A stretch of DNA of 11,292 nt from NCBI GenBank assembly GCA_023818995.1, contig JAMWDA010000032.1, positions 995-12,286 of the forward strand, given 5' to 3'. Positions within the stretch are counted from its first letter, which is position 1; each line of letters starts with the position of its first letter. Shown piece after piece: positions 1-4,980 of this stretch. The notes beneath the pieces are model-generated. The model saw nothing but the letters and a program-made list of their open reading frames with translations, was not told where the DNA came from and did not search any database. The translations under genes were made by a program, and so were the position numbers. Source of the stretch: Candidatus Omnitrophota bacterium. Its GTDB lineage: Bacteria; Omnitrophota; Gorgyraeia; Duberdicusellales; 4484-171.

Positions 1-435
1 TACTCCTTTACCTTCTGTTTGCTTAAGTAACTCATAGAGGTCTAAAAAGTCATGCCCAGTAACCACTATGCCATAACCTTCCTTTGTCCCTGTAAAAACT
101 TCTGTGGGCTGAGGTATACCAAAACGGTTAATATGTGCTTTATCCAAAAGCTCCATTACCTTTATATTAATTTTACCGCAAGCTAATATATATTCAATAA
201 ATCTATCTGCATCAAAATTAACATTAGTAAGCGTAGAAAATAATCCTTCGCTAACAAAATAGTCTATCTCCGGATCGGAAAACCCTAAGCGTTTAGCATG
301 ATAATTGTATGCACAAATTCCTTTTAGTCCAAAAATGAGCATATCCTGTAGACTTGCTAAATCTTCATCTTTACCACAAACACCAATAACTTGACAACCG
401 CCGGCTATAGTTTGAGAACATTGATAACAAAACAT
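1..435 (-). CDS. hcp: Hybrid cluster protein (hydroxylamine reductase), N-terminal part, runs off the left edge
   Basis: The 145 visible N-terminal residues begin MFCYQCSQT and carry four cysteines at 3, 6, 14 and 20 (C-x2-C-x7-C-x5-C). This is the N-terminal Fe-S ligand pattern of the Hcp type found in strict anaerobes; the enterobacterial type has wider spacing. Hcp is a cytoplasmic protein of about 530-550 residues with a hybrid Fe-S-O cluster. It reduces hydroxylamine in vitro and is implicated in NO reduction and nitrosative stress defence. The hybrid cluster ligands lie in the missing part. The start is set by a strong Shine-Dalgarno (AGGAGGTG, 4 nt before ATG). It follows the Rrf2 regulator gene by 19 nt on the same strand, so the two are probably co-transcribed and the regulator probably controls hcp. 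The identification rests on the N-terminal motif and the context and is firm; the completeness of the gene cannot be judged. Confidence 0.93.
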   Translation of the reverse strand, partial: MFCYQCSQTIAGGCQVIGVCGKDEDLASLQDMLIFGLKGICAYNYHAKRLGFSDPEIDYFVSEGLFSTLTNVNFDADRFIEYILACGKINIKVMELLDKAHINRFGIPQPTEVFTGTKEGYGIVVTGHDFLDLYELLKQTEGKGV

Positions 436-454
436 CTTTCACCTCCTAAAATTT

Positions 455-853
455 TCAATCCAATAAAGAAGATATAGTTGTAGACTCCAATTTAGAAATT
501 GCGTAATTTTCAATCTCTTTTATTTTTCTTCTTAAAGGGCAATTATTTCTGTTAGGACAAAGTTTTCTTTTAAATATACATTCATTTAATTTTATATTCC
601 CCTTAAATATTCTTATAAGTTCGCCGAGGTATATCTTACGAGGAGATAAAGCTAAACTAAACCCTCCTCCGTATCCTTTATAAGCTTTGAGCACCTTTCT
701 CTTATGCAAAGTCTGTAGAAGCCTACGCAAAAATGGCTTAGGTAAATTTAACTCTTCCACCAATTCGGACACAGAGATTACCTCTTTTTTAGAACGAGCA
801 ATATATAAAAGAGCCCTTACCGCATAATCTATATTACGTGTTATAAGTTTCAT
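455..853 (-). CDS. Rrf2-family Fe-S transcriptional regulator (NsrR/IscR-like), likely regulator of hcp
   Basis: This 132-residue protein has the usual Rrf2 length. It starts MKLITRNIDYAVRALLYIA, the typical first helix, followed by a winged HTH at about residues 26-66 with the glycine-rich wing YGGGF. Three cysteines at 92, 99 and 105 (C-x6-C-x5-C) match the cluster-binding loop of IscR/NsrR, so it probably senses NO or the redox/Fe-S state. It lies 19 nt upstream of hcp in the same direction, and NsrR-type regulators are well known to control hcp, so an NO-responsive role is the best inference. IscR, RsrR or CymR-like roles are less likely from context. A 23-bp inverted repeat covers its promoter, suggesting autoregulation. 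The predicted transcription start is only about 5 nt before the ATG. The only ribosome-binding-like sequence, AGGTG, sits 2 nt from the ATG, so translation may be nearly leaderless. Confidence 0.9.
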   Translation of the reverse strand: MKLITRNIDYAVRALLYIARSKKEVISVSELVEELNLPKPFLRRLLQTLHKRKVLKAYKGYGGGFSLALSPRKIYLGELIRIFKGNIKLNECIFKRKLCPNRNNCPLRRKIKEIENYAISKLESTTISSLLD

Positions 854-862
854 AACACCTAT

Positions 863-891
863 AATGATATAATATAAGTATCATTTGTCAA
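863..891 (-). promoter_or_regulatory. rrf2-hcp promoter with overlapping 23-bp inverted repeat (candidate Rrf2/NsrR operator)
   Basis: On the minus strand a consensus -35 TTGACA (891-886) is followed after 16 nt by -10 TATCAT (869-864), 11 nt before the rrf2 ATG. Perfect 7-bp arms AATGATA (863-869) and TATCATT (879-885) enclose 9 nt, giving 23 bp in all. That is the 11-1-11 size reported for NsrR and close to other Rrf2 operators. The repeat covers the spacer and -10, where a bound repressor would block RNA polymerase. Operator identity is inferred from position and size; the sequence is not the enterobacterial NsrR consensus. Confidence 0.6.
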
Positions 892-939
892 TAATAAAAA
901 TTAACTTTACGCTCAAATTGTTCTAACAAAATGGTAGGT

Positions 940-1299
940 TTAACGGATGATAAAACGGAACTTAATCTTTTTGGCTTTAAAAAACTGCTGAGTAAATTTC
1001 TTCGCTACCGTATGGTCATACTTCTTACAAGAAAATATATTTATATAAGCTGTCTTCCATAAATCGGAAAAATGCCCGGTGATGGAACTGGTCTCTATTA
1101 GTTGAACCAAAGAATACCCTTTGGTGTAAGCGGCATTTTCGCCGAAATAAGGAAGAAGTGTTTTACCAAATTTCTTCATCTTTATCAATTTACAGAGTTT
1201 ATCTACATATTCTTGAAGTTTTTTCTTAGATGTAATAACTTCCTCATCACAATCGTATAAATCCATAATCAACTCGTACCCGTAAATCTCCCTTTTCAT
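940..1299 (-). CDS. Divergent S-adenosylmethionine decarboxylase-like pyruvoyl proenzyme (SpeD paralogue)
   Basis: This 119-residue protein aligns over its length with class 1b SpeD, the small prokaryotic AdoMet decarboxylase. S71, H76 and C91 keep the exact spacing (5 and 20 residues) of the pyruvoyl Ser, processing His and catalytic Cys in the bona fide SpeD two genes upstream (S73, H78, C93). It should therefore self-cleave (here between T70 and S71) into beta and alpha chains with a pyruvoyl group. Around this core the sequence differs: ESH becomes TSS, and HTWPE becomes HFSDL, removing the Trp and Glu that contact AdoMet in the Thermotoga enzyme. SpeD homologues that decarboxylate ornithine or arginine are known in bacteria, so I infer a non-AdoMet amine-forming decarboxylase. 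It could instead be an inactive partner of SpeD. It overlaps speE by 4 nt (ATGA) and has a strong Shine-Dalgarno AAGGAGG 9 nt before ATG, inside speE. Confidence 0.8.
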   Translation of the reverse strand: MKREIYGYELIMDLYDCDEEVITSKKKLQEYVDKLCKLIKMKKFGKTLLPYFGENAAYTKGYSLVQLIETSSITGHFSDLWKTAYINIFSCKKYDHTVAKKFTQQFFKAKKIKFRFIIR

Positions 1300-2135
1300 T
1301 CTTCTATACCTCCTTTTATATAATTAGGCAAAGAGAAACTTGCAAAATGTATCTCGGGATTATAATACTTTGTCCTCAATTTCTTCTCCTCGTACTTTCT
1401 ATTCAAATCTTGGGAAGAAATATCAATAGGGGTTCTACCCTTACAGGCTATTAGAAAAGTAAAGAACCCAATTATATAAGTAGGACAGGCTGCCACCATA
1501 GGAATAACCTTAGGGAATATTCTCTTTAGACGATTGTAATTTTCTCTTAACTCTTTTGGTTGTAAGATACTAGAACCTGTCTGTCTAATCATCATCCCAT
1601 CCTCGTTCAATAGGGAAAATATATCCTGATAAAACTTCTGCGAAAATAGAACCTTAGCTACTCCCATTGGATCAGGAGAATCAACGATAACAATATCAAA
1701 ATTCTCCTCTTTATTTTGGACAAACTTTGCTCCATCCTCTATTATTATTTCTGCTCTCTTATCGTTAAAAGAGTTGCCACATATAGATTTAAGATATTTT
1801 TTAGAAACTTCTATCACCTCTCTATCTATCTCTACCAGATATACTTTTTCTACATCATGCTTTAAAACTTCCCTTAACACCCCACCATCCCCTGCACCGA
1901 TTACAAGAATTTTATTAGGAGAGGGGTGACTAAGAAGTAAAGGGTGAGTGAGCATTTCATGATAAACGAAATTATCTTTCTCCGTAGTTTGAATAGTATC
2001 GTCTAAAAAAAGAATACGACCTAAAAGAGGTGTTTGGTATATCACTATATTCTGGTAGGGTGATTTCTTTTTATAGATAATCTTACCTTCCAAACCCAAC
2101 TTTACATCAGAAAATAGTTTTTCGTAATACCACAT
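1296..2135 (-). CDS. speE: Spermidine synthase (polyamine aminopropyltransferase)
   Basis: This 279-residue cytosolic enzyme transfers the aminopropyl group of decarboxylated AdoMet to a diamine, typically putrescine giving spermidine plus methylthioadenosine. The N-terminal beta-strand domain ends in GRILFLDD (39-46), followed by the active-site segment QTTEKDNFVYHEML (49-62). The Rossmann methyltransferase-like core has GAGDGG (80-85), the acidic VEID (101-104), and DSPDP (152-156), where most bacterial enzymes have DSTDP. The length is normal for the family. It lies between speD and the speD paralogue: its ATG overlaps the speD stop by 1 nt (TAATG) and its TGA overlaps the next ATG by 4 nt, so the three are surely translationally coupled. 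An AGAGG sequence 9 nt before the ATG serves as ribosome-binding site. Family assignment is firm. The acceptor (putrescine, agmatine or cadaverine) cannot be read from the sequence and depends on what the downstream decarboxylase makes. Confidence 0.94.
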   Translation of the reverse strand: MWYYEKLFSDVKLGLEGKIIYKKKSPYQNIVIYQTPLLGRILFLDDTIQTTEKDNFVYHEMLTHPLLLSHPSPNKILVIGAGDGGVLREVLKHDVEKVYLVEIDREVIEVSKKYLKSICGNSFNDKRAEIIIEDGAKFVQNKEENFDIVIVDSPDPMGVAKVLFSQKFYQDIFSLLNEDGMMIRQTGSSILQPKELRENYNRLKRIFPKVIPMVAACPTYIIGFFTFLIACKGRTPIDISSQDLNRKYEEKKLRTKYYNPEIHFASFSLPNYIKGGIEE

Positions 2136-2509
2136 TAGAATATACCTCTCTTCATTTCCGCTATTTGCATTCTTTTTGGTTTAAATCCTTTCTTTATCAC
2201 CGGTATAGCTTTATAGGGGTTAACTTCTCCACAAACAAAAATATCTAAAGCGCCGTAATGGTATTCCGGCCAAGTATGGATACTTATATGCGATTCTTGA
2301 ATTATAGCTATTCCTGAAATTCCTCCCGAGGGAGAAAATTTATGTAGGTCAATTTTAAGAAGAGTGGCTTGGCAGGCTTTAACGGAATCTTTTAAAATTT
2401 TACGGATTTTAGGTAGAGATGTTAAATTACAAGCTTCCCACAGTTCAATTACGAGGTGCACCCCCGCATATTTTATATGTCCATTAGTGGCACAAAATTC
2501 CTTTCCCAT
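2135..2509 (-). CDS. speD: S-adenosylmethionine decarboxylase proenzyme (class 1b)
   Basis: At 124 residues this has the standard length of small prokaryotic SpeD. It is a self-processing pyruvoyl enzyme that decarboxylates AdoMet to provide the aminopropyl donor for SpeE. The signature ESHISIHTWPE (72-82) contains the cleavage site E72/S73 (Ser becomes pyruvoyl), the processing His H78, and the W80/E82 pair that contacts substrate in the Thermotoga enzyme. C93 in IFVCGE is the catalytic proton donor. It is the first gene of a tight operon (speD, speE, speD paralogue). The translation start is odd: six G bases directly abut the ATG, leaving almost no spacer. Another purine patch, AAGAGG, lies about 13 nt further upstream, so the ribosome contact is unclear. 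The promoter is probably in the AT-only region upstream, but I find no convincing -35/-10 pair there. Confidence 0.95.
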   Translation of the reverse strand: MGKEFCATNGHIKYAGVHLVIELWEACNLTSLPKIRKILKDSVKACQATLLKIDLHKFSPSGGISGIAIIQESHISIHTWPEYHYGALDIFVCGEVNPYKAIPVIKKGFKPKRMQIAEMKRGIF

Positions 2510-2724
2510 CCCCCCTAATTATTCCTCTTAATAAAAAAATCTTTACTAAAATCATAAAATAATTCATTTAATCAATTAATATTAAAACAAAAAATTTATA
2601 TTTTGCAAGAAAAAAAATTATTTTTTTAATTTTTTTGATATAATTAAAAACAAACTCTAAGCAGAAAACAATAACTATGAAAATATAGAAATTAAGTGGA
2701 ACTTATTGTTAAATTCGACTATCT
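2510..2724. other. AT-only divergent intergenic region between speD and the ykgJ-like gene
   Basis: This 215-bp stretch separates genes transcribed outwards. Positions about 2521-2660 are almost pure A/T with long A and T tracts (for example 2610-2637), which fits UP elements or intrinsically bent promoter DNA. On the plus strand a perfect -10 TATAAT lies at 2639-2644 without a good -35; it would give a leader of about 74 nt. On the minus strand TTGCAA (2608-2603) with TTAATA 17 nt downstream is a weak speD promoter candidate. No hairpin, tRNA or ORF was found. Confidence 0.45.
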
Positions 2725-3000
2725 ATGGATTACGAAAAATACCTTGAAGAAAAGAAAAAAGAATACGAAAACTTGTGCAGACGATGTGGCGCTTGTTGTG
2801 GAGCATACGAGGATCCTTGTAAACATCTTAAACTAAATGAAGAAGGTAAATACCATTGCGAAATATATGAAAAACGCTTTGGCTTAAGAGAAACAGTAAA
2901 AGGAGAAAAATTTTATTGTGTGGAGATAAGAAAAATTCTAAACTCTCATTGGAAGAAAGATTACCTATGTGGATATAAAATTAAATCAAAGTTTATATAA
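2725..3000 (+). CDS. YkgJ-like cysteine-cluster protein (putative zinc/iron-chelating domain)
   Basis: This small 91-residue soluble protein has eight cysteines at 18, 21, 24, 25, 32, 45, 65 and 82. The opening C-x2-C-x2-CC-x6-C block (CRRCGACCGAYEDPC) followed by the CEIYEKR segment is characteristic of the YkgJ/UPF0153 family, annotated as zinc- or iron-chelating. The biochemical role of the family is unclear; some members accompany Fe-S or modification enzymes. The C-terminal half keeps FYCVEIRKIL and a last cysteine at 82. There is no signal peptide or membrane segment. No Shine-Dalgarno precedes the ATG. It stands alone, divergent from the polyamine operon and convergent with the glycosyltransferase gene, whose stop it overlaps by 15 bp, so neighbours give no clue to function. 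Family assignment is fairly secure; function is not. Confidence 0.8.
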   Translation: MDYEKYLEEKKKEYENLCRRCGACCGAYEDPCKHLKLNEEGKYHCEIYEKRFGLRETVKGEKFYCVEIRKILNSHWKKDYLCGYKIKSKFI

Positions 3001-4242
3001 AGGAGTTAAAATTATAAAGTAAATGTTCGCTACAAAGAAAGAAAAGAGAGCAAAAAAAGTTAATAAAAGTTGGGCGGAAGGAATTAAAAACATAATTAAA
3101 CTCAATATAGTGAAAAACAAAAATCCCATAGAATCAACTCTAATTTTTCTAATTAAGAACCCCCTAAGAGTATAGTACCTGCCCATATTTATATATTTCA
3201 ATATGGCAAATAAAAAGAGCAAACTTATCGTTGAATAAAACTTCAAAGGGTTATCTAAGAAAAAGGTAGTAGCGATGTAAATTACTAACAACAAACTATC
3301 TAATAATTTCTCTATATTATCATATACGGGGTAATTATTCTTACAAAAAACTATAGAAAAGTATGTATTGATAAGAAGTAAAAGATAAAATATAGTATTA
3401 ATATAGGAAAATATACCTTGGAAATTTATAAGGTTTATCAACAAAAAAAATGTTCCTATAGCGAAGAATAAACGTCCTAAAAATATATTCTTTCTTTTCT
3501 CTAAAATATCTTTCTCAAAATAATGAAAATAGTTTTTCTTAATCTTCTTCTTTAAAATAGTATAAACAAATATTTTTATATATTGATAAATACTGTAAAT
3601 ATATCCTTGTTTTTGGAATCTCCGATTGGATGTATAAATAAAATAATTTAAAATAGCTAATTTACCTAAACTTTTAATACGATTACATAATTCGGCATCT
3701 TCGTTTACCAAAATTTCCTCATCAAAACCACCTACTTTTTCAAAGATATCTTTCTTAGTCAAAATAAATATACCAGCAACGAAAGGGTTAAATTTTGCTA
3801 TAGCTTTTTGAAATATATAGAGAAAACTATATATAAAATTTGCTAATAACCCACCTTCTATAGGTCTAAATCTACAAGAACAAACTACCAAATTCATCTT
3901 TATAAATCTCTCTAAAATATTATAGAGAGTATCTTCTTCTTTAATAAGAGTATCAGCATCCATAAATGCTAAATAGAGGCACTTTGCTTTCTTTGCCCCA
4001 AAATTGCGTTGAAAACTAACATTTCTCTTATTAACCGTATATACCTCTAAATAAATATTGGGATTAGAGTTATTATTAAATGTCTCCTTAACTTTTGAAA
4101 CAGTATTATCCCAAGAAGAACCATCAACAACAATGACCTGTAACTCTAAACCTTTTTGGTTAATTAAAGATTGAATAAGTTGAGGTAAATATTTTTCTTC
4201 ATTTAAAGAGGGGATAACTATAGATAATGCTAAGTTTTCCAT
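2986..4242 (-). CDS. Membrane-anchored family 2 glycosyltransferase
   Basis: This 418-residue protein has an N-terminal GT-A domain (about 1-215) and a hydrophobic C-terminal half. The GT2 signatures are clear: SIVIPSLNEEKYL (7-19), VIVVDGSSWDNT (37-48), the metal-binding DAD (95-97) within AFMDADTLI, GGFDE then the catalytic-base region NEDAEL (180-185), and an RRFQKQG motif (207-213) like the RRF-type motif of processive or membrane GT2 enzymes. Roughly six membrane segments follow (near 256-272, 279-300, 314-330, 337-352, 372-388 and 391-413). It probably transfers a sugar from a nucleotide donor to a lipid or surface polymer at the cytoplasmic face of the inner membrane; donor and acceptor are unknown. 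It is monocistronic and convergent with the ykgJ-like gene, with its own extended -10 promoter and no Shine-Dalgarno. The odd RRF plus multi-TM tail could also fit a carotenoid or hopanoid-type glycosyltransferase. Confidence 0.88.
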   Translation of the reverse strand: MENLALSIVIPSLNEEKYLPQLIQSLINQKGLELQVIVVDGSSWDNTVSKVKETFNNNSNPNIYLEVYTVNKRNVSFQRNFGAKKAKCLYLAFMDADTLIKEEDTLYNILERFIKMNLVVCSCRFRPIEGGLLANFIYSFLYIFQKAIAKFNPFVAGIFILTKKDIFEKVGGFDEEILVNEDAELCNRIKSLGKLAILNYFIYTSNRRFQKQGYIYSIYQYIKIFVYTILKKKIKKNYFHYFEKDILEKRKNIFLGRLFFAIGTFFLLINLINFQGIFSYINTIFYLLLLINTYFSIVFCKNNYPVYDNIEKLLDSLLLVIYIATTFFLDNPLKFYSTISLLFLFAILKYINMGRYYTLRGFLIRKIRVDSMGFLFFTILSLIMFLIPSAQLLLTFFALFSFFVANIYFIILTPLYKL

Positions 4243-4258
4243 AATTTATTTGATTTTT

Positions 4259-4268
4259 ATTCTACCAT
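4259..4268 (-). promoter_or_regulatory. Extended -10 promoter of the GT2 gene
   Basis: On the minus strand the sequence reads ATGGTAGAAT, an extended -10 (TG-G-TAGAAT, hexamer 4264-4259). No recognisable -35 is present. The transcription start would fall near 4252, about 10 nt before the ATG at 4242. The same decamer with one change occurs in the opposite direction at 4306-4315 for nth, forming a mirrored divergent promoter pair. Confidence 0.45.
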
Positions 4269-4305
4269 CTTTTTTTTATTAAGGTAGTTTTTTCTTTTTT
4301 GTTAT

Positions 4306-4315
4306 ATGGTATAAT
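4306..4315 (+). promoter_or_regulatory. Extended -10 promoter of the nth operon
   Basis: ATGGTATAAT contains a perfect TATAAT (4310-4315) with the TG extension (4307-4308). The -35 region is only a T-tract (4288-4300). The predicted start near 4322 leaves a leader of about 11 nt before the nth ATG at 4333, with no Shine-Dalgarno. This is the only good promoter seen for the seven-gene plus-strand run, apart from possible weak internal ones. Confidence 0.6.
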
Positions 4316-4332
4316 TGTTATAAATAATTTCG

Positions 4333-4980
4333 ATGATAGATACTAATATATTAAAACTAATAGAAAAACAAGTTAAAACTTTCAATATCCCTTGGGTAAC
4401 AAAAGATTTCCGTAAACACCATAACCCTTTTAGAGTTTTAGTCTCCTGCATATTGAGTCTTCGCACTAAGGACAAAGTTACCCAAGAGGCTTCTTTACGT
4501 TTATTTAAAGTAGTAAAAAATCCTTTTGATTTAGCTAAATTGAAACCTAAACAGATTGAAAAGCTAATATATCCTGTGGGTTTCTACAGAAAAAAGGCTA
4601 AAGACCTTAATAATTTAGCTATTCAATTAATCAAAAGATATAAAGGAGTTGTCCCTAATAATGAAAATAGCCTCCTTGAATTTAAAGGGGTAGGAAGGAA
4701 AACAGCTAATTTAGTGTTAGGGTTAGGTTATGGAATACCCGCTATATGCGTAGATACTCATGTACATAGAATATCTAATCGTTTAGGTTGGGTTAAAACA
4801 AAAACTCCTAAATCTACGGAAGATAATTTAAAAAAAATTATTCCTAAAAATTGGTGGATTAAGCTTAATACATTACTCGTTGCTTTTGGACAAAATATAT
4901 GTTTACCTCTTCGCCCCTTATGTAGCACCTGCTATGTGAATAAATATTGTAAAAAAATAAACGTAATTAGTCACCGATAA
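4333..4980 (+). CDS. nth: Endonuclease III (DNA glycosylase/AP lyase, HhH-GPD family)
   Basis: This 215-residue base excision repair enzyme removes oxidised pyrimidines and nicks AP sites. The helix-hairpin-helix LLEFKGVGRKTANLVLG (114-130) contains the catalytic Lys K123, and VDTHVHRISNRLGW (140-153) carries the catalytic Asp D141. The C-terminal [4Fe-4S] loop has cysteines 190, 197, 200 and 206 in the canonical C-x6-C-x2-C-x5-C arrangement. The SLRTKD segment (42-47) replaces the SAQATD of E. coli, as in many thermophile or anaerobe homologues. Length and all key residues are normal, so it should be active. It heads the plus-strand operon, 10 nt before the GH5 gene, directly behind an extended -10 promoter, and has no Shine-Dalgarno. 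Functional linkage to the downstream genes is not obvious. Confidence 0.95.
   Translation: MIDTNILKLIEKQVKTFNIPWVTKDFRKHHNPFRVLVSCILSLRTKDKVTQEASLRLFKVVKNPFDLAKLKPKQIEKLIYPVGFYRKKAKDLNNLAIQLIKRYKGVVPNNENSLLEFKGVGRKTANLVLGLGYGIPAICVDTHVHRISNRLGWVKTKTPKSTEDNLKKIIPKNWWIKLNTLLVAFGQNICLPLRPLCSTCYVNKYCKKINVISHR

Follow-up and report, generated by a model that had tools for sequence, protein, structure and literature searches.

The window analysed here, a stretch of 11,292 nucleotides from an Omnitrophota genome, very probably carries a spermidine operon in which S-adenosylmethionine (AdoMet) decarboxylase (SpeD) and spermidine synthase (SpeE) are accompanied by an ornithine decarboxylase of SpeD descent (SpeDC), a reading that comes from sequence comparison. 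The operon is real and conserved, and it is most probably functional. SpeD would cleave itself to generate a pyruvoyl group and decarboxylate AdoMet to the aminopropyl donor; SpeDC would cleave itself before Ser71, and its pyruvoyl group would decarboxylate L-ornithine to putrescine; SpeE would then join the aminopropyl donor to putrescine to give spermidine. Self-processing and substrate are thus both predictions for the window SpeDC. The enzyme family and the speD/speE/speDC arrangement are already published, in Li et al. 2023 (PMC10407285), which describes SpeD homologues from many phyla decarboxylating ornithine (SpeDC) or arginine (SpeDA). Two things are added here: a further SpeDC, and the warning that a missing HTWPE motif is not in itself enough to exclude AdoMet. 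The locus is also one more case in the published picture of many little-studied bacteria whose putrescine comes from a small pyruvoyl enzyme, descended from AdoMet decarboxylase, rather than from a pyridoxal phosphate (PLP) enzyme.

The genes and residues discussed below are, in window coordinates:

2135-2509, minus strand: speD, class 1b S-adenosylmethionine decarboxylase proenzyme, 124 residues, with ESH and HTWPE intact (PF02675, TIGR03330)
1296-2135, minus strand: speE, spermidine synthase / polyamine aminopropyltransferase, 279 residues (TIGR00417, NF002010)
940-1299, minus strand: speDC (predicted), SpeD-derived pyruvoyl-dependent L-ornithine decarboxylase, 119 residues (PF02675, diagnostic residues, tree clade)
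1045-1104, minus strand: stretch with the four SpeDC diagnostic residues, Gln66 (1102-1104), Thr70 (1090-1092), Phe77 (1069-1071) and Tyr85 (1045-1047)
1087-1089, minus strand: codon of Ser71, predicted self-cleavage site and pyruvoyl source, standing in the alignments opposite the ESH Ser of SpeD and that of Thermotoga maritima AdoMet decarboxylase
1072-1074, minus strand: codon of His76, predicted processing or catalytic residue (T. maritima His68), at Ser+5
1027-1029, minus strand: codon of Cys91, predicted catalytic residue (T. maritima Cys83), at Ser+20

The window genome comprises 1,583,452 bases in 222 contigs and is 91.82% complete. Among the best 120 of 1351 matches, the nearest named relatives belong to Omnitrophota (“Candidatus Omnitrophica bacterium”), at up to 97% identity. 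The AdoMet_dc family is present in 165 of the 384 genomes sampled from this phylum. ORF coordinates bear out the tight packing described in the earlier note: speD and speE overlap by 1 nt (position 2135) and speE and speDC by 4 nt (1296-1299). We infer that the three genes are read as one transcript. An Rrf2-family regulator (455-853, minus strand, 97.4 bits) follows speDC in the same direction at a distance of 86 nt, and a promoter-like TTGACA-16-TATCAT site is found immediately upstream of it; such sites are no more frequent in the region than expected by chance (9 found, against 12.6 expected from shuffles). A scan of window positions 1-4500 against Rfam gave no match at E up to 1.

All three operon proteins pass the curated Pfam cut-offs. 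The first SpeD scores 116.3 bits against PF02675 AdoMet_dc (cut-off 25) and 129.4 bits against the NCBIfam model TIGR03330 (cut-off 75.65), and its HTWPE motif is present, which makes it a class 1b AdoMet decarboxylase; it matches the T. maritima AdoMet decarboxylase structures 1vr7 and 1tlu with E values of 3.3e-25 and 4.8e-24. SpeE is assigned as a spermidine synthase by TIGR00417 (296.6 bits, cut-off 249.55), and it also scores 328.2 bits against NF002010 (cut-off 260).

The second SpeD homologue belongs to the same Pfam family (PF02675, 65.7 bits, cut-off 25), and it fails the NCBIfam AdoMet decarboxylase equivalog TIGR03330, with 29.3 bits against a cut-off of 75.65. Because the similarity of both window proteins to AdoMet_dc lies above the cut-off, the observation is more than chance. 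Direct BLASTP of one against the other returned nothing significant, so that their kinship rests on the common Pfam family. The window SpeDC alone gave no match to solved structures at E up to 0.1; a profile built from 39 of its relatives matches T. maritima AdoMet decarboxylase at E 3.5e-4. A tblastn search with the window SpeDC, allowing E values up to 1, yielded only nine phage records, 28-30% identical to it.

The residues expected of a self-processing enzyme are in place. PMC10407285 gives the roles of T. maritima Ser63, His68 and Cys83, and the corresponding Ser, His (+5) and Cys (+20) have the same spacing in both window proteins, as the earlier note had observed. The positions of Ser71, His76 and Cys91 are invariant in alignments of 19 rows (A1) and 39 rows (A5). 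Residue comparison likewise confirms that ESH is replaced by TSS and HTWPE by HFSDL in the paralogue. Compared with class 1b SpeD of the T. maritima type, the window SpeDC shares the family by sequence and the Ser/His/Cys spacing, and it differs in having Thr for the acidic residue before Ser, HFSDL for HTWPE, and Tyr for Ala at Ser+14. Asp stands where HTWPE has Pro. One Pro is completely conserved in bona fide AdoMet decarboxylases according to PMC10407285; if, as we take it, that residue is the HTWPE Pro, it is missing from the second SpeD homologue.

Gln, Thr, Phe and Tyr residues described in the same source as diagnostic for SpeDC, setting it apart from SpeDA (PMC10407285), occur in the window protein as Gln66 (Ser-5), Thr70 (Ser-1), Phe77 (Ser+6) and Tyr85 (Ser+14), the positions being our assignment from the order of the published text and from the Anaerolinea thermophila and Electrothrix proteins. 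In alignment A5, Gln, Thr and Phe are invariant and Tyr is at least 90% conserved. Across 106 relatives (26 viral loci and 80 loci kept of 506 confirmed), Gln and Thr each occur in 106, Phe in 104, Tyr in 98 and all four in 96, counts that are partly circular because the scan patterns included VQLIETS-like and Y..FSCK-like stretches. More informative are two rows related to assayed enzymes, both of which have all four residues. One (L115) comes from an A. thermophila genome of another isolate than the assayed UNI-1, and its protein has the same length as the assayed one, 140 residues; the other (L078) is a Candidatus Electrothrix aarhusensis locus, whose equivalence with the assayed accession we infer from gene context. 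The window SpeDC is 50% identical to the Anaerolinea protein over 114 residues and 38% identical to the Electrothrix protein over 119. Among the proteins compared, the assayed ornithine decarboxylases are matched only by complete four-residue sets, that of the window SpeDC included.

The earlier note had proposed placing the protein among SpeD homologues of known substrate. A maximum-likelihood tree (IQ-TREE, LG+C20+F+G4) was calculated from 52 rows chosen from the fetched sequences, with 129 of 201 columns kept; the rows include two pelagiphage relatives and no assayed SpeDA protein. The window SpeDC falls among Omnitrophota (10 rows, support 96/97), within an 18-row clade that contains the A. 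thermophila SpeDC (100/99) and is apart from the SpeD clade. Electrothrix SpeDC joins it in a wider fork of 36 rows (81/90). The window SpeD groups with T. maritima in an 11-row SpeD clade (100/97). Sinorhizobium phage phiN3, the pelagiphages and one Microcystis phage protein lie outside the 37-row fork of SpeDC-like rows (95/89). The branches of phiN3, Anaerolinea SpeD1 and L059 are long and their own places unsure; IQ-TREE cautioned that long branches join at the base of the tree.

The arrangement of the operon recurs across the phylum. The order speD-speE-second SpeD, on one strand, is found at 12 of 30 Omnitrophota loci, which are the best 30 SpeD matches (L004-L033), some of them ended early by the 1.5-kb flanks used. 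Overlaps were measured in 14 operons (the window, the 12 conserved loci and same-genus locus L144), nine of which passed the filter, the other five being dropped because their SpeD lacks the exact string HTWPE. The overlap between speE and the second SpeD gene is exactly 4 nt in eight of the nine, the window included; in the ninth (L026) it is 55 nt when the longest ORF is taken. The same-genus genome has an identical speD-speE-speDC arrangement with both overlaps.

Assayed SpeDC enzymes come from Candidatus Atribacteria, A. thermophila and Candidatus Sumerlaeota, where they are clustered with a second speD and speE, and the SpeDC of the omnitrophotan Candidatus Velamenicoccus archaeovorus LiM was also assayed as an ornithine decarboxylase (PMC10407285). 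The window protein resembles these in its processing residues and Gln/Thr/Phe/Tyr signature, in its size and phylum, in lying in a cluster with speD and speE, and in the finding of no other ornithine or arginine decarboxylase gene. The order differs, being speD-speE-speDC in the window and speD-speDC-speE, all three together, at the Anaerolinea locus, with nothing that changes the kind of system. At the Electrothrix locus, speDC is followed by an Orn_DAP_Arg_deC gene and a saccharopine-dehydrogenase-type gene, neighbours that fit the casdc and casdh described beside SpeDC in PMC10407285. A search of the literature from 2023 on for “SpeDC” with “ornithine decarboxylase” found nothing beyond that paper.

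The rest of the genome fits an operon that supplies its own putrescine. Family profile searches of the window genome, in which at 92% completeness absence is not proved, found no OKR_DC_1, PvlArgDC, arginase/agmatinase (PF00491) or agmatine deiminase (PF04371). The search for agmatine-to-putrescine enzymes covered agmatinase and AguA, AguB belonging to the broad nitrilase family outside it. Deoxyhypusine synthase likewise had no match in the genome. The earlier note had held that separate ornithine or arginine decarboxylase genes would make the paralogue redundant; none was found, and redundancy with a PLP decarboxylase was rejected, since the sole Orn_Arg_deC_N match is LysA diaminopimelate decarboxylase (493.2 bits, cut-off 297.9). 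The gene adjoining lysA is presumably dapF. Having yielded no agmatinase, no agmatine deiminase and no PLP decarboxylase for ornithine or arginine, the genome searches are consistent with a path from ornithine through putrescine to spermidine. The two-decarboxylase route of the earlier note is thus supported as the best reading by the SpeDC signature, the tree position and the genome searches. That note had left the amine acceptor as either putrescine or agmatine; putrescine is favored and agmatine disfavored, because the SpeDC residues, the tree position and the failure to find agmatinase or agmatine deiminase together narrow the route to ornithine and putrescine.

PdxS, which belongs to one of two known routes to PLP, was found in 0 of 37 family genomes in a search limited to that route, and PLP is perhaps not made in this way in the family. 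The result agrees with PMC10407285, which describes PLP synthesis as missing or incomplete in Omnitrophota. LysA is a PLP enzyme, so PLP would still be needed.

The supply of ornithine counts against the SpeDC reading, since ArgJ and ornithine carbamoyltransferase were not found in the window genome and argC appeared only as weak matches below the cut-off; an OTCace_N match considered as ornithine carbamoyltransferase proved to be aspartate carbamoyltransferase. These gaps are likely, though not proved, to be gaps in the assembly, because argC scores above its cut-off in 35 of 37 family genomes (the window genome being one of the two where it does not) and the same-genus genome G182 has its genes in one cluster. 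That cluster, argC-J-B-D-F-G-H, contains argC (TIGR01850) together with what we take from the translations to be argJ, argB, argD, argF, argG and argH. On the same grounds we rejected the notion that the enzyme would be useless for want of argJ, argC and argF.

Phage homologues bear on how the specificity residues should be read. Some act as ornithine or arginine decarboxylases (Li et al. 2023 PNAS, PMC9992855), and in the same source the phiN3 SpeD restored spermidine in an Escherichia coli speD deletion (PMC9992855). The phiN3 protein (L141, 1480-1896) has HFCDV in place of HTWPE, and at the four SpeDC places it has Gln, Asp, Phe and Tyr; it thus shares three of the four residues, with Asp where SpeDC has Thr before the pyruvoyl Ser. 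The earlier note had taken loss of HTWPE as a sign that the paralogue refuses AdoMet. By itself this sign is insufficient: a functional AdoMet decarboxylase also lacks the motif, and so loss of its Trp and Glu does not exclude AdoMet. Two pelagiphage proteins (HTVC109P and HTVC115P), which stand in for the assayed pelagiphage HTVC201P and are not among the assayed proteins named in the literature passages, have Thr at Ser-1 and lack Gln and Phe; their Ser-to-Cys distance exceeds 20 (22 counted on the sequences), and their longer His-to-Cys spacing makes the Tyr place not comparable. With three SpeDC residues in phiN3 and, among the three comparable places, only the fourth in the pelagiphages, the specificity residues can be read more sharply. 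These patterns make the residue adjoining the pyruvoyl Ser, acid or Thr, a good first target for mutation.

It is highly unlikely that the paralogue instead produces agmatine as an arginine decarboxylase (SpeDA), an unrecognised enzyme then acting on agmatine or aminopropylagmatine. SpeDA too is a neofunctionalised SpeD paralogue beside polyamine genes; such enzymes evolved on three or more occasions, and the published tree places the pelagiphage HTVC201P arginine decarboxylase inside the SpeDC clade (PMC10407285). Ornithine and arginine are both substrates of the phage enzyme UCP01 according to PMC9992855, and Thr before Ser is common to the two other pelagiphage proteins. Against this, such a route would need agmatinase or AguA/AguB, and neither the arginase/agmatinase family nor agmatine deiminase (AguA) was found; moreover, the window protein has the whole SpeDC signature, whereas the two pelagiphage proteins, without Gln and Phe, fall outside its clade. 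A second AdoMet decarboxylase is an extremely improbable reading, even though the paralogue belongs to Pfam AdoMet_dc, functional phiN3 AdoMet decarboxylase shares its Gln, Phe and Tyr and also lacks HTWPE, and a Sinorhizobium phage AdoMet decarboxylase lies among phage homologues active on ornithine in a published tree (PMC9992855). The acidic residue before Ser in these enzymes (Asp in phiN3, Glu in SpeD) is replaced by Thr in the window protein, which scores far below the AdoMet decarboxylase cut-off (29.3 bits against 75.65); phiN3 lies outside the SpeDC-like fork, albeit on a long branch of unsure place; and the operon already has a standard speD, with no other putrescine source found among the families searched.

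We give next to no credence to a catalytically dead partner that would form a heterodimer with SpeD and regulate it. The tight coupling of the genes would suit such a partner, and SpeD-SpeDC fusions exist, some with a degraded second domain; PMC10407285 names those of Desulfotignum phosphitoxidans and Omnitrophica bacterium OLB16, the latter assayed as an ornithine decarboxylase, and notes a degraded C-terminal domain in some Lentisphaerota fusions. Yet Ser71, His76 and Cys91 are intact, at positions invariant in A1 and A5, and if the protein were dead, no source of putrescine would have been detected in the genome. The ornithine decarboxylase reading places the same two activities beside speE as the fusions do, predicted in the window and carried by two separate genes with speE between them. 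It is very unlikely that SpeD and SpeDC, co-translated around SpeE, form a heterodimer in which putrescine produced at one active site adjusts the decarboxylation of AdoMet at its partner. Such a heterodimer, if formed, would match the known fusions in two-gene form and would be a living model of the stage that preceded eukaryotic AdoMet decarboxylase.

Two further observations concern phages. Microcystis phage MaAM05 (L142, MW495066.1) carries three consecutive genes, for a standard SpeD with HTWPE, another SpeD homologue and SpeE (486-974, 980-1402 and 1538-2342). In the second of these proteins Glu still precedes Ser, whereas the conserved Pro and the four SpeDC residues are all missing, so that the enzyme may decarboxylate arginine or may be a divergent AdoMet decarboxylase. 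In the tree, rows L060, L061, L064, L065, L071 and L083, from records titled Chlamydiota, Verrucomicrobia, Methylophilaceae, Flammeovirgaceae and Proteobacteria, cluster with viral rows L034, L039, L043 and L052 as one SpeDC-like clade (98/88), a grouping suggestive of gene transfer between phages and bacteria, or else of prophages or misbinned phage contigs.
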